A model generated the notes under the pieces. That model was not told where the DNA came from, made no database searches, and saw only the letters and a list, made by a program, of their open reading frames with translations. From Bacteroidota bacterium (GTDB lineage Bacteria; Bacteroidota; Ignavibacteria; Ignavibacteriales; Ignavibacteriaceae): a stretch of 64,000 bases of DNA. Both the position numbers and the translations under genes were made by a program. Below are positions 3,923 to 63,280 of the stretch, in pieces. Every line of letters starts with the position of its first letter. Position 1 is the first letter of the stretch. Where the stretch lies: contig JAKAKL010000118.1 of the NCBI GenBank assembly GCA_021824565.1, positions 1 through 64,000 on the forward strand. The letters are read 5' to 3'.

Positions 3923-5578
3923 TTAGTTATTAATGTTTAGAAGTTTGTTATAAACTTCTTTATCGTTTAAAATATTAAACGCTGTTTTGAACTGGACATC
4001 ATCCGAAAGAATCTGCTCAATTTCACCGTCGTTGCCTATATATCTCGAAGCCAATTCAATTTTGATTTCTTCAATTATTTCCTTTTTAAATTTCTTCAGT
4101 TCTTTATCGCCAATATTTTCAAACTGGTCCTTTATCTTCTCAAGGTTTTCATAAATACTGTTGTTCATCCTTTTAGTTTTTACGTCAGCTAAAAGCCGAT
4201 CTACATCGGATTCCTCAGGAGACTTGAATTTATAATTTTGTTCATTCAAATATTTTTCAAAATCATCTAATAGTTTCTCATCATTCAAAGAATAAAAATC
4301 ATCCTTTGAATGAGCGTAATAATAATGGTCGGCGAACTGGAAAAATAATCCTTTGGCAAGAATGTCTTTTGTAATATCACCTTCAATACTGTAAGGAACG
4401 GTTGTATCGGGCGTAATTCCGCCTGCTGAATAAACAACTCGTTTATGATCCGTATAGAAAGTGTTCTTTACAACAGTATCAACTTCAATAACTGCCTTGT
4501 TATGGTTTGCATAATCGATTTTCTGAATACATCGCCCGCTTGGAGTATAATATTTGGCTGTGGTGATTTTTAAAGAAGTCTTATAATCGAGCGGGGTGAT
4601 AGTCTGCACCAATCCTTTACCAAAAGATTTTGTACCGAGAATAACTCCTCTATCATGGTCTTGAATAGCACCTGCAACAATTTCAGATGCCGATGCCGAG
4701 CCGTCATCAATTAGCACAACAAGTTTTGCATTGCCAAGCAAAGGTTCCTGCGTTGAATAATAACTTTTCTTGCTTGCTTCATCTCTGCCTTTGGTTGATA
4801 CAACTAATTGGTTTTTCTGCAAAAAGTTTTCACACACATCAACTGCAACATCAAGCAATCCGCCCGGGTTTCCTCTTAAATCAAGGACAACGGACTTAAT
4901 TTCTTTTTCTGATTTTAATTTCTTCAGAGCTTGTAATACTTCATCGCTTGCAGATCGGCTGAAATTTGTCAGCCTTAAATAAACGTTGTTGCTATTCTTT
5001 GGATAAAAGCCCGCGTATGCAACGCTTTTTACAAGCACTTCTTGCCTTACAAGGTTAAAAGACAAAGTATCTTTTTGGTTGTCTCTTAAAACTTTTATGT
5101 TAATAATAGTACCCGGCTGTCCTTTAACTAACGATGAAATTTCATTTACATTTTCCGGAGTAATTTTTTTACCGGCTACTTCAATTAAATTATCACCGAC
5201 CCTAACTCCCTGCTTTTGAGCGGAATAGCCGTCGAACACTTCGACTACAGTTACCTTATCTCCTCTTACCCCGATTGAAATTCCAACGCCGCCGTATTTA
5301 CCGTTGGTTATTAAATCAAAGTCTTCTTTTTTATTTTCATCAATAAAAATTGTATACGGATCTAAAGCACCAAGCATCCCTTTGATTCCGGCGCGCATAA
5401 ATTCTTCAGGATCAATTTTATCAACGTAATTAAAAGTAACCTCTTTATAAATTCTTCCGAAAAGATCGATGTTTTTAGCTATCTCAAAATACACATCGTC
5501 TTTGCCGGTAAAGAAGCCGGAGAAAATTAAAATAATAACTGCGGCAAAAATTAATTTTTTATAACTAGAAAATTTCAT
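3923..5578 (-). CDS. ctpA: C-terminal processing peptidase, S41 family, with PDZ domain
   Basis: A 551-residue protein with an N-terminal membrane/signal segment (about 8-24), a PDZ domain (about 95-170; GGVGISIGVRGDKVTVVEV) and an S41 protease core. The Ser-Lys catalytic pair is placed at S296 in DDGSASASEI and K321 in SFGKGLVQ, with Q325 four residues later, as in CtpA/CtpB. The family cleaves or trims periplasmic proteins from their C-termini. A roughly 150-residue charged C-terminal extension (from about 400) goes beyond the minimal enzyme. Its start overlaps the tmk stop by 4 bp, indicating translational coupling. The exact substrate is unknown. Confidence 0.88.
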   Translation of the reverse strand: MKFSSYKKLIFAAVIILIFSGFFTGKDDVYFEIAKNIDLFGRIYKEVTFNYVDKIDPEEFMRAGIKGMLGALDPYTIFIDENKKEDFDLITNGKYGGVGISIGVRGDKVTVVEVFDGYSAQKQGVRVGDNLIEVAGKKITPENVNEISSLVKGQPGTIINIKVLRDNQKDTLSFNLVRQEVLVKSVAYAGFYPKNSNNVYLRLTNFSRSASDEVLQALKKLKSEKEIKSVVLDLRGNPGGLLDVAVDVCENFLQKNQLVVSTKGRDEASKKSYYSTQEPLLGNAKLVVLIDDGSASASEIVAGAIQDHDRGVILGTKSFGKGLVQTITPLDYKTSLKITTAKYYTPSGRCIQKIDYANHNKAVIEVDTVVKNTFYTDHKRVVYSAGGITPDTTVPYSIEGDITKDILAKGLFFQFADHYYYAHSKDDFYSLNDEKLLDDFEKYLNEQNYKFKSPEESDVDRLLADVKTKRMNNSIYENLEKIKDQFENIGDKELKKFKKEIIEEIKIELASRYIGNDGEIEQILSDDVQFKTAFNILNDKEVYNKLLNINN

Positions 5579-28047: not shown

Positions 28048-28110
28048 CAACAAACAACAAACCACACACAACAAACAACTAACCACGCGCAACAAACTAC
28101 AAACAACTAA
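28048..28110. repeat. Heptanucleotide tandem array with 21-bp superperiod
   Basis: Nine consecutive 7-nt units without gaps: CAACAAA (four copies) and variants CCACACA, CAACTAA (two), CCACGCG and CTACAAA. The order forms three 21-nt units, the first two of the pattern CAACAAA-CAAC(A/T)AA-CCACNCN. The array reaches the stop codon of the FN3 protein gene (28107-28109). Confidence 0.75.
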
Positions 28111-28730
28111 TGGGGAGCCGTTGCAGAAACCGGGTTACTCCATGTGCCCTTCTCTTCACCTTTTAAAGCGCGGCATCTTATCCAGTATTTCCTGCCTGAA
28201 GTTAATCCCTTAAAAGTAAATCTCGAAGTTTTACCCGAAGCGCCGGCATTTACCCAATTCTCCGGGCTGTCTGCTGAAATCTGGAACTCATAACCCGAAG
28301 CCGAAACTACCCTGTCAAAGTTTATGTCGATCTCACCGGCTTCATCTCCAATTGCCGCAGAAATATTTGTAACCTGCTCAATTGGTTCTGCGCTTCCACG
28401 TTCGGCAGCTAACGGAAAGCCTGTTGTTAATAGAATATTTACGTCATCAGTTTTGCCGTTAATCTCGTTAACAATAGATAAATCTATTTTCTCGAGATTC
28501 TCACGCGCGTCATCTCTTTCCGCAATAGCATTTTTCAACTTATCTTTCAATATGCTTACTGCTCCCTCCTTCACTTCAAGCGTTGTTATTGCGCCGTCAT
28601 AGCTTGTTACCTTGGTATTATCAACAACAACTTTCACTCCCTCATCTATTAGCGCTTTATGCCTGTTTCTCGTCGTTTGAATTACTTCAGGAACAGGGTT
28701 TCCTTTTAAATCAGATTTTATTTTAGCCAT
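28107..28730 (-). CDS. Small fibronectin type III domain protein, function unknown
   Basis: A 207-residue protein without a signal peptide. Residues 1-110 are predicted helical and charged (VSILKDKLKNAIAERDDARENLEKID), and about 115-205 form one FN3 domain (EIDINFDRVVSASGYEFQIS, FKGLTSGRKYWIRCRALKG, WSNPVSAT). Proteins of this size with a helical N-terminus and one FN3 domain occur in Bacteroidota genomes without known role. It stands alone between the tRNA and a 1.1-kb non-coding region, with a heptamer array at its 3' end and a degenerate repeat array upstream, so it looks like accessory content. A strong site (AAAAGGAG, about 28738-28745) precedes the ATG. Confidence 0.72.
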   Translation of the reverse strand: MAKIKSDLKGNPVPEVIQTTRNRHKALIDEGVKVVVDNTKVTSYDGAITTLEVKEGAVSILKDKLKNAIAERDDARENLEKIDLSIVNEINGKTDDVNILLTTGFPLAAERGSAEPIEQVTNISAAIGDEAGEIDINFDRVVSASGYEFQISADSPENWVNAGASGKTSRFTFKGLTSGRKYWIRCRALKGEEKGTWSNPVSATAPH

Positions 28731-28814
28731 TTTAGACTCCTTTTATAGTTATGAAATATGTTAATTAAGGTACAATTCCTTTTATTCTTTGTTTTTAATC
28801 AAAATTTGACATCT

Positions 28815-29195
28815 GCACGAAGGAAAACTTCTTTTTCACGAATAAAATTTCCTTTTCCATGAGTGAAAAATATTTTTACACGAATAAAAATCATTTTTCC
28901 AGCCTTAAATTTTCATTTTCATGCATTGAAACGGGTTTTTCTCTTCTGAAATTTCATTTCTATGCATAGAAATCATTTTTCCAGCCTTGGAATTTCATTT
29001 TCATTCGTTGAAATCATTTTTTCAGCCTTGGAATTTCGTTTTCCTTCGTTGAAATCATTTTCCCAGCTCTGAAATTTCGTTTTTATACATGCAAAAATTT
29101 TTTTCATGCTTAGATTTTTCATTTTAATTCATGCAAATCATTTCTCAAGCATAAAATTTTCATTTTGATGCATGGAAATATGCTTTTCTCTTAAG
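28815..29195. repeat. Degenerate T-tract repeat array, period about 20.5 bp (41-bp dimer)
   Basis: About 18 successive half-units, each carrying a run of T (usually TTTT) followed by a CCTTGG/CGTTGA/CATGCA-like word. The marker words sit near 28818, 28839, 28861, 28881, 28903, 28924, 28944, 28965, 28985, 29006, 29026, 29047, 29067, 29088, 29109, 29130, 29150 and 29171, mostly alternating 20 and 21 bp apart. The best-preserved copies are at 28970-29075. A 41-bp dimer is not a multiple of three and there is no open frame, so this is not a decayed coding repeat. Confidence 0.7.
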
Positions 29196-29784
29196 CTTTC
29201 TTTATTCTAATTGATAAAAACCCGTTGTTTGAAATTATATTTTAAGTAATAGGTATAAAAATTATTTTATGTATAATTTGAAACTCATCCTCCTTATCGC
29301 CTTCTTTTGATAAGAGAAAGGAAATATAAAGTTGAATTCTTATAAATACATTTAAAGCAATAAATAATGACCAAAGCATCTTTGAAATTATTTATTTTAA
29401 AATAAAAATTTAAACAAACTTCTTTGCTTAATTAAATTAGCTCTATATTTATTATATGTTAGAGTTGACTCACCTGCCCCGGAAAATGTCGCGAGTAACA
29501 TGATCTAAAATTTGAGAATATTTTAGAGAAAGTCAATAATCTTCCCAAAAATTTTTTTTATACTATTAATTAATTCAAATTCATTTAGGATATAAATTTC
29601 TTTTTTTGATTTTTTGAAAAATTTCATAAAATGTTCAAACTAATACTAATCATGATAATAAAATTGAACTAATATGGAATGAAGTTTAAGATCAAGTTCA
29701 AGTTTAAGAAGATCATGTTTGAGTATAGGAAGAAGGTAAACGCGAAGATCAGGAGATGACATATGATTATTACTTCAAAATTTA
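29196..29784. other. AT-rich non-coding region upstream of secD
   Basis: About 590 bp with no recognisable gene or RNA. A 26-codon frame at 29679-29759 would encode a very basic peptide alternating Lys with Phe/Ile (MKFKIKFKFKKIM...), but it lacks a ribosome site and its DNA is a run of AAGTTY-like hexamers, so it is not called as a gene. Confidence 0.4.
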
Positions 29785-62072: not shown

Positions 62073-62495
62073 ATGAAACACAGATTAATAACCACGTTAG
62101 CCGCTGCGGCAATTTCGATGATCCTGATGTCTTCGGAATCATCAGCACAAAATGGAGTTAATTATTCCGATTCAAAATATCATTCAATCGCGGTTGGAAA
62201 TTTAATAAGCGGAATAAATTCTAATAATGCCGGGCTGAGTAAAAGCTCAATTTATTTTGCGGGATATTATAGAGTCCATGAAGCTTCAAGCGCGCTTATA
62301 AAAATACTTAAGGACAACACGAAAGACAGATGGATAAGAGTCTATGCGGCGCTTGCGTTATACAATATGGACGAGACTGGCGCTTACACTGAAATTCAAA
62401 GGCTTGCTAATACAGAGGGCGACGCCAAGGTAAAAAATATTTGCGCCGCTATTTATGCGGAATATCTTCACAGCCTGCAGGCTTCTGCAAATTAG
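62073..62495 (+). CDS. Small exported HEAT-repeat-like protein
   Basis: A 140-residue protein with a signal peptide (about 1-26, ending SSAQN) and helical repeats: SSALIKILKDNTKDRWIRVYAALALYNMDETGAYTEIQRLANTEGDAKVKNICAAIYAEYL looks like about two HEAT repeats. These mediate protein contacts; no catalytic residue is seen. AAAGGAG lies 6 nt before the ATG. It is flanked by repetitive non-coding DNA on both sides and has no operon partner. Confidence 0.7.
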   Translation: MKHRLITTLAAAAISMILMSSESSAQNGVNYSDSKYHSIAVGNLISGINSNNAGLSKSSIYFAGYYRVHEASSALIKILKDNTKDRWIRVYAALALYNMDETGAYTEIQRLANTEGDAKVKNICAAIYAEYLHSLQASAN

Positions 62496-62609
62496 ATGAT
62501 TACGGAATAGCTTCATGAAAGCCGGCTCCTTCGTAAGAGAGAATGCTAAAGGTCAATAAGAGGATAATGTGAAAATAATTTTTAGAGAATGTATGAACTT
62601 GACCTCATT

Positions 62610-62644
62610 TTGACACAAACTTTTTCAATTTTGTCTTAGTTTAC
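62610..62644 (+). promoter_or_regulatory. Possible promoter reading into the 21-bp array
   Basis: TTGACA at 62610-62615 and TAGTTTAC at 62637-62644, 21 nt apart, a loose match to a Bacteroidota promoter just before the repeat array. Weak evidence. Confidence 0.2.
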
Positions 62645-62654
62645 TTTATAAAAT

Positions 62655-62927
62655 GCCAGGTCTATATTATAAATTGCCTGTTCTAATTTTAAAAGTGTCA
62701 AGTCCGGGTTAAAAATTGCCTGGTCTAATTATAAAAATGCCAAGTCCATTTTAAAAGTTGCCTGGTCTAATTCAAAAAATGCCAGGTCCAGAACAAAAGC
62801 AGCCAGGTCTGGTAATAAAAGTGCCCGGTCCGGGACAAAAAGCGCCTGGTCTAAGATTAAAAGCCTCAGGTCCATTTCATAAATAGCCTGGTCTTATTTT
62901 GCATTAGCCAAGTACGCGTAAAAAGCT
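62655..62927. repeat. 21-bp tandem array, 13 units, strictly phased
   Basis: Thirteen units each exactly 21 bp long with no insertion or deletion. Each starts with a variant of GCC(A/T)GGTC(T/C) and ends with an A-rich 12 nt. Even-numbered units mostly carry T at position 4 and odd units A, giving a partial 42-bp dimer. On the minus strand one frame reads repeating heptapeptides of the form D-(Q/L)-A-x-(F/L)-x-(L/M/P), for example LDQAIFNPDLTLLK, with one TAA stop near 62735. It may be a decayed coding repeat. Confidence 0.85.
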
Positions 62928-63214
62928 AACCGGTGCTACATAATTTTACCTTAGTTCCTTTCAAATTTAGTTAAATGCAGCATAGGACAGCCGCAAACAA
63001 ATAATTAATTCAATGTTTTGGTTCCGGTATTTAATAATTAAGCCCGGAACTATCATGTTTAAAAATAAGAACGTCATTAGAGTAGGCGAGCACGTATGAA
63101 AATCTGCTTACTTAAGAGATATTTAAGAATCCTGCTTATCATGTTCCCGTTAATAATTACACAAGCAAATTAAGTTATAGCTGTAAAACAGTTAAGAAAA
63201 AAATAAAATACTAA
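62928..63214. other. Intergenic region before dnaK terminator
   Basis: Contains a 25-codon plus-strand frame at 63096-63173 (MKICLLKRYLRILLIMFPLIITQAN) that looks like a signal peptide followed directly by a stop; an AGGCGAG site lies about 7 nt upstream. It may be the start of a decayed exported-protein gene. Nothing else was recognised. Confidence 0.3.
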
Positions 63215-63241
63215 TAAAAAATGCCGGGCTAACCCGGCATT
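63215..63241 (-). terminator. Terminator of dnaK
   Basis: Perfect hairpin ATGCCGGG/CCCGGCAT around 63221-63240 with a 4-nt loop; on the minus strand it is followed by TTTTTT. It lies 41 bp past the dnaK stop. Confidence 0.85.
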
Positions 63242-63280
63242 TATTATTTTGATCCTATAAAGAAGTCAAACTAAATATTA

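Follow-up and report, generated by a model that had tools for sequence, protein, structure and literature searches.

A non-coding array of 21-bp units in an Ignavibacteriaceae genome belongs to a class of arrays that may be rows of protein-recognition sites

The window, a stretch of 64,000 nucleotides from contig JAKAKL010000118.1 of a Bacteroidota bacterium of the family Ignavibacteriaceae (assembly GCA_021824565.1), carries a tandem array between a gene for a 140-aa HEAT-like protein and a DnaK-like gene, both of which converge on it. The array is the middle part of an element, spanning 62598-63013, that is bounded by two conserved ends, E2 and E1. The same window holds a second array. The features discussed here are the following:

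28107-28730, minus strand: FN3-like gene, encoding a 207-aa protein with a C-terminal FN3-like domain
28762-29216, minus strand: second array (21/41/82 bp), directly 5′ of the FN3-like gene
62073-62495, plus strand: neighbouring gene for a 140-aa protein with a weak HEAT_2 match (E 0.0024), its 3′ end towards the array
62598-62644, minus strand: conserved end E2, TAAGACAAAATTKAAA..GTRTGTGYCAAAAT..
62642-62914, minus strand: array of 13 x 21-bp units, core GACYWGGC, conserved GAC--G-C---TT
62915-62949, minus strand: degenerate outer units between the array and E1, still in the 21-bp register
62950-63013, minus strand: conserved end E1, TTTGCGGCWGTYCTATRYTG..YCAAATTTGAA
63281-64000, minus strand: 3′ part of a convergent gene that appears DnaK-like as read from its sequence

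Beside the DnaK-like gene, an inverted repeat at 63213-63248 runs into a T-rich stretch and looks like the terminator of that gene.

All 13 units of the array are on the minus strand and exactly 21 bp long, and no indel interrupts them. The initial annotation had described 13 units in strict 21-bp register at 62655-62927; this is the same array read in another phase, and the register is borne out. Identity at lag 21 is 153/252 (61%, z = 12) and at lag 42 it is 162/231. In 2000 dinucleotide shuffles of the array, lag-21 matches averaged 66 with a maximum of 93, and a value of 0.385 was never exceeded at any lag from 6 to 60. TRF reported periods of 21, 42 and 84, the two longer ones being super-periods; alternation of the units produces the one of 42 bp. 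Across 37 units from three loci, columns G1, A2, C3, G6, C8, T12 and T13 hardly vary; the others drift. The units are direct and non-palindromic (palindrome z 0.5), and their register runs on into both conserved ends, as it also does in the sister copies compared unit by unit.

The element occurs in six copies in the genome. Besides the window copy these are:

C125: 98% identical to the window copy, cut by the contig end
C83:47932-48303
C83:31941-32439, minus strand
C3:119727-120266, minus strand: the gene-linked copy (C3:119717)
C3:140316-140960

E1 is found in all six, and E2 in all except the C125 copy, where the contig end cuts it off. The flanks of these copies are mostly unrelated. In a comparison of unit profiles the inner units fell into two groups without clear mutual similarity, one comprising the window, C125, C83 and right-hand C3 copies and the other the C3:119717 copy and the second C83 copy. 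In the gene-linked copy the array lies 46 bp from a gene for a 243-aa protein at C3:118940-119671, with E2 facing the gene start. A blastn search of 59 relatives found no copy of the window element, and profile models of E1 and E2 gave weak matches but no clear copy in 40 relatives, the best of them (in G011) having no array. A single blastn match, in a coding-like region of G025, was regarded as chance. Synteny at dnaK is not conserved in seven named MAG loci. The window array is a gene-less, or orphan, copy of a six-copy element with a non-coding 21-bp middle. Contig C125 ends (L022 9975) within its near-identical copy of the array, so the array has broken the assembly there. At the end of contig C3, adjoining an F1 element, we also observed a 52/104-bp array with ATCCCTAAAGGGAT palindromes (L024 15073-15309).

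The window array belongs to a class of non-coding tandem arrays with a period of 21 bp or its multiples. It does not lie directly 5′ of a small-protein gene, a feature of the gene-linked members only. About 857 kb of the window's own genome was sampled: 492 kb that included contigs picked for carrying the window element or a match to it, then 365 kb from other contigs, some with weak chance matches to the element. Lag scans gave 11-12 positions at lags 21/42 in the first sample and 10-12 in the second, one of the latter (L153) in a coding frame; apart from multiples of 21, other lags were rare in both. Once weak and coding cases are removed, about 24 long arrays remain, roughly one per 35 kb. 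Nearly all have a period of 21, 42, 63 or 84, and their units are mostly unrelated. If the sample is typical, we estimate on the order of 130 arrays in the genome. In G001, about 10 such positions occur in 600 kb, two of them in coding-like low-complexity sequence, and the class was not seen in samples of G004, G005, G007, G009, G013 and G054.

Mean autocorrelation peaks at 21, 42 and 63 bp only. The 21-bp period is shared by about 30 arrays, a frequency that no other array period approaches. The arrays have no sub-period of 3, 7, 10 or 11 bp. An origin from 7-bp repeats or 10.5-bp sub-units was considered and rejected, as there is no autocorrelation at 7, 10 or 11 bp. About a third of the arrays have palindromic units (mean z 1.39 ± 0.35). 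Some contain 41-bp steps, so the 21-bp register is not absolute. Repeats of other kinds were also noted: G018, a family member in whose sample no 21-bp array was seen, has 7/14-bp repeats (ATTACTA, TGAAGTATGAATTA; L080, L079), and another Ignavibacteriales MAG has a 20-bp palindromic array (ACCTCAGAGGTTTGGTTTCA; L174 940-1085).

About a third of the sampled arrays precede, on the 5′ side, a gene for a small uncharacterised protein (126-245 aa) that starts some 30-210 bp from the array; the remaining two thirds or so have no partner gene. One linked protein belongs to the NCBIfam PQLLE family (NF052641; 108 bits, cut-off 80), of which 34 loci were collected from relatives and 395 genomes of the phylum. 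Lag-21/42 identity reached at least 0.53 in 30 of these 34 loci vs 2 of 82 control loci (one of the two being the genome's own F1 element), with a Fisher p of 4e-21 that is only indicative, because some of the loci are related to one another (L245 and L256 are fragments of a single gene) and the cut-off was chosen with the data already in view. The four failures are L258 and L266, which have little or no 5′ flank, L261, which has a 41-bp period, and L267, at 0.52. Two more loci, L274 and L273, are doubtful, passing the locus-wide scan but with a 5′ flank in which a 21-bp array is not evident. The arrays are on the 5′ side; no PQLLE 3′ flank contains one. The PQLLE protein is itself an internal duplication of a unit of about 105 residues, and in hhalign it matches the GGTR, L238 and L169 proteins at 80-86% probability (GGTR 80%). 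The same comparisons demonstrated no relation of the FN3-like, L162 or C3-linked proteins to the other partner families.

Arrays also stand 5′ of five of the eight GGTR-family loci with enough flank, one of them in a different family of the phylum; the other three loci have none. The second window array and its FN3-like gene form an intact gene-array module with homologous modules in relatives. Homologues of the FN3-like gene were found in G001 (three), G012, G019 and G459. All but the last are preceded by an array; in G459 only a 67-bp repeat is seen. By eye, these arrays are alike between species, sharing GGAAA..TTTCC in their units and similar downstream blocks. The structure model of the FN3-like partner exceeds a pLDDT of 70 in the FN3 part only, and the protein was not found on plasmids or viral contigs. 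Searches that included Pfam and NCBIfam scans recognised no DNA-binding domain in the partner proteins. Pfam and NCBIfam gave no Y1 (IS200-like) transposase or other recombinase domain in them either, including the C3 F1-linked protein, and the linked genes have no Rep initiator domain.

Several gene-less arrays match gene-linked ones in the unit PWM, at values above a null with a 0.999 quantile of 0.53 and a maximum of 0.57. The matches are L165-L244 (0.97), L048-L291 (0.83), L221-L254 in G012 (0.98), L241-L279 in G001 (0.81) and, across species, L158-L253/L254 (0.74-0.77). The pair L221-L254 is a 636-bp match at 95%, flank included; contigs end at or close to L244, L254 and L221, where the assembly may have had an effect. 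L158 and L168 share 450-550 bp, and several copies share the array but not the flanks. The window array, with its GACYWGGC unit, is tied to the gene-linked C3:119717 copy through E1 and E2 only, not through unit similarity.

What the period means can be approached by asking at which level it is kept. The initial annotation had proposed either a decayed gene for a heptad-repeat protein or a DNA-level structure. A period of 21 is seven codons, and the minus-strand frame of alternating D-Q-A and D-L-A heptapeptides exists as claimed, with one internal TAA and one at the entry side, making only two stops in 13 units. The sister arrays, however, speak against the decayed gene: in this frame the C83 and C3 copies have TAG as the second codon of alternate units, and all three F1 arrays tested have stops in every frame. 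An entropy test of codon positions found no 3-bp periodicity (p = 0.66). Among 32 arrays the least-stopped frame was for most no better than in column shuffles, a test with two exceptions (L168, L233) and a null inflated by alternating units. We therefore see practically no room for a coding origin of the window array. As a separate case, the array at L157 988-1383 differs from the other members: its plus-strand frame is open throughout (IFEVLSDFNELVEN repeats) and may be a genuine coiled-coil gene. The DNA-level proposal fared better in one of its two parts. The recurrence of the period in about 30 arrays of mostly unrelated sequence is strong support for phasing to two helical turns; curvature as the selected property finds no such support. 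A-rich blocks do recur every two helical turns, by construction, but the predicted bend of the window array is not raised above that of column-shuffled 21-bp repeats (z = 0.19; 1.33 vs dinucleotide shuffles), and the class as a whole averages 0.28 ± 0.16 against its column-shuffled controls. Nor do arrays at 64-69% GC in G143, or the lack of autocorrelation at 10-11 bp, fit phased A-tracts, and selection for curvature is highly improbable. It is also quite unlikely that the arrays act as RNA, either transcribed separately or within the 5′ leader of their linked gene. Where a gene is linked, its coding strand is rich in purines across the array (fraction above 0.5 in 32 of 39 among the L242-L291 upstream regions, mean 0.56, as raw values for these regions alone), but the window array lacks this bias (0.48), folds like its shuffles (z -0.08 and -1.48 on the two strands) and has no match in an Rfam search.

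A fixed spacing combined with free sequence would be the pattern expected of protein sites on one face of the DNA, and the combination of gene linkage and satellites suggests recognition in trans. We tentatively propose, with a little less than even confidence, that the arrays are helically phased rows of recognition sites, with a separate sequence and gene for each family, and satellites dispersed elsewhere. Each 21-bp unit would be a putative protein-binding site. With a spacing of 2 x 10.5 bp, all such sites would face the same way around the helix, allowing a protein to bind cooperatively along the array. The simplest candidate binder is the protein that the linked gene encodes; a shared factor is the alternative. 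Binding at the gene-linked copy may regulate its own gene, with satellites, the window array presumably among them, bound elsewhere. Selection would keep the spacing, and the recognition sequence would drift along with its protein. In favour of this reading are the constant period over mostly unrelated units, the 5′ arrays of PQLLE, GGTR and FN3-like loci, the unit matches between gene-less and gene-linked arrays, the palindromic units seen in part of the class, and the failure of the coding, curvature and RNA-fold readings. Weighing against it are the lack of a recognised DNA-binding domain in the partners, the many arrays that have no partner gene, the three GGTR loci with no array, the non-palindromic units of the window array and its link to the C3:119717 copy by the ends only, and the 41-bp steps.

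The main rival to these recognition-site rows is mobility of the cassette, which would fit many of the same observations. Here E1-array-E2 would be a miniature, non-autonomous element copied in trans by a logic like that of REPIN/RAYT; the linked gene or another transposase would mobilise it, and the period would reflect that machinery. Such a cassette would fit an element that is present six times with the same ends in mostly unrelated surroundings, arrays that recur without the gene to which they are linked elsewhere, and the 450-550 bp shared by L158 and L168. Against this, the partner proteins lack a Y1 transposase domain or that of any other recombinase, several copies have the array in common but not its flanks, and mobility by itself gives no reason why a linked gene always has the array on its 5′ side; we regard mobility as possible but unlikely. 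The arrays could also be functionless minisatellites, duplicated with a 21-bp ruler such as slippage on a protein-wrapped template. Mostly unrelated units, variable copy number and a mixture of homogenised and diverged arrays would suit neutrality. It leaves unexplained both why, across the phylum, the arrays stand 5′ of particular gene families and why motifs are retained between species, making a purely neutral origin rather improbable.

Several known systems resemble these arrays in part. The REPIN/RAYT systems of Pseudomonas and E. coli pair one gene with a repeat family of its own sequence whose copies are dispersed intergenically, and several REPIN families coexist in one genome (PMC3116915). 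The arrays described here likewise have their own repeat family beside one gene and dispersed copies, but REPINs are inverted pairs of short palindromes, as opposed to 10-25 direct 21-bp units, and RAYTs are Y1 transposases, a domain that the present partners lack. In anatomy the arrays resemble the iterons of plasmid Rep systems, which repeat directly every 17-22 bp or so, roughly two turns of the helix, beside the gene of their binder. Unlike iterons, the present arrays are chromosomal, form many unrelated families per genome, have 10-25 or more units and come with no Rep domain; the FN3-like protein, moreover, was not found on plasmids. The tested defining features of REPIN/RAYT and of iteron/Rep systems are absent here. 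The parC and tubC centromeres also place a small gene beside a helically phased tandem array of binding sites, but no ParM/TubZ-type partner was identified here and there are dozens of arrays per chromosome. CRISPR arrays show regular repeat spacing in non-coding DNA too; in the present arrays most of the 21-bp unit is repeated, there are no unique spacers of constant length, and no cas gene is among the listed array neighbours. The open-access literature yielded nothing relevant on 21-bp arrays or PQLLE, and an earlier description may exist beyond that scope.

There is perhaps an even chance that these arrays belong to an undescribed chromosomal DNA system of the Bacteroidota, in which small, mostly helical proteins (PQLLE/GGTR and others) each have their own 21-bp direct-repeat array and dispersed satellites, with spacing conserved and sequence free, one protein-repeat pair per family and many per cell. 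A constant period, free sequence and the same protein family across the phylum are a combination predicted by no repeat class that we could name. If the proteins bind the arrays, orthogonal protein-DNA pairs that obey an inherent spacing rule would exist by the dozen in these genomes. They would lend themselves to studies of the co-evolution of binding specificity, and might form an additional level at which chromosomes are organised or genes controlled. The PQLLE family gains a genomic context open to immediate testing.

One further observation concerns another part of the window. The stretch 4564-4858, in which ARAGORN found no tmRNA, matches the Rfam family Rp_sR47 (Rickettsia sRNA47) at 66.5 bits against a cut-off of 60, in an unexpected organism.
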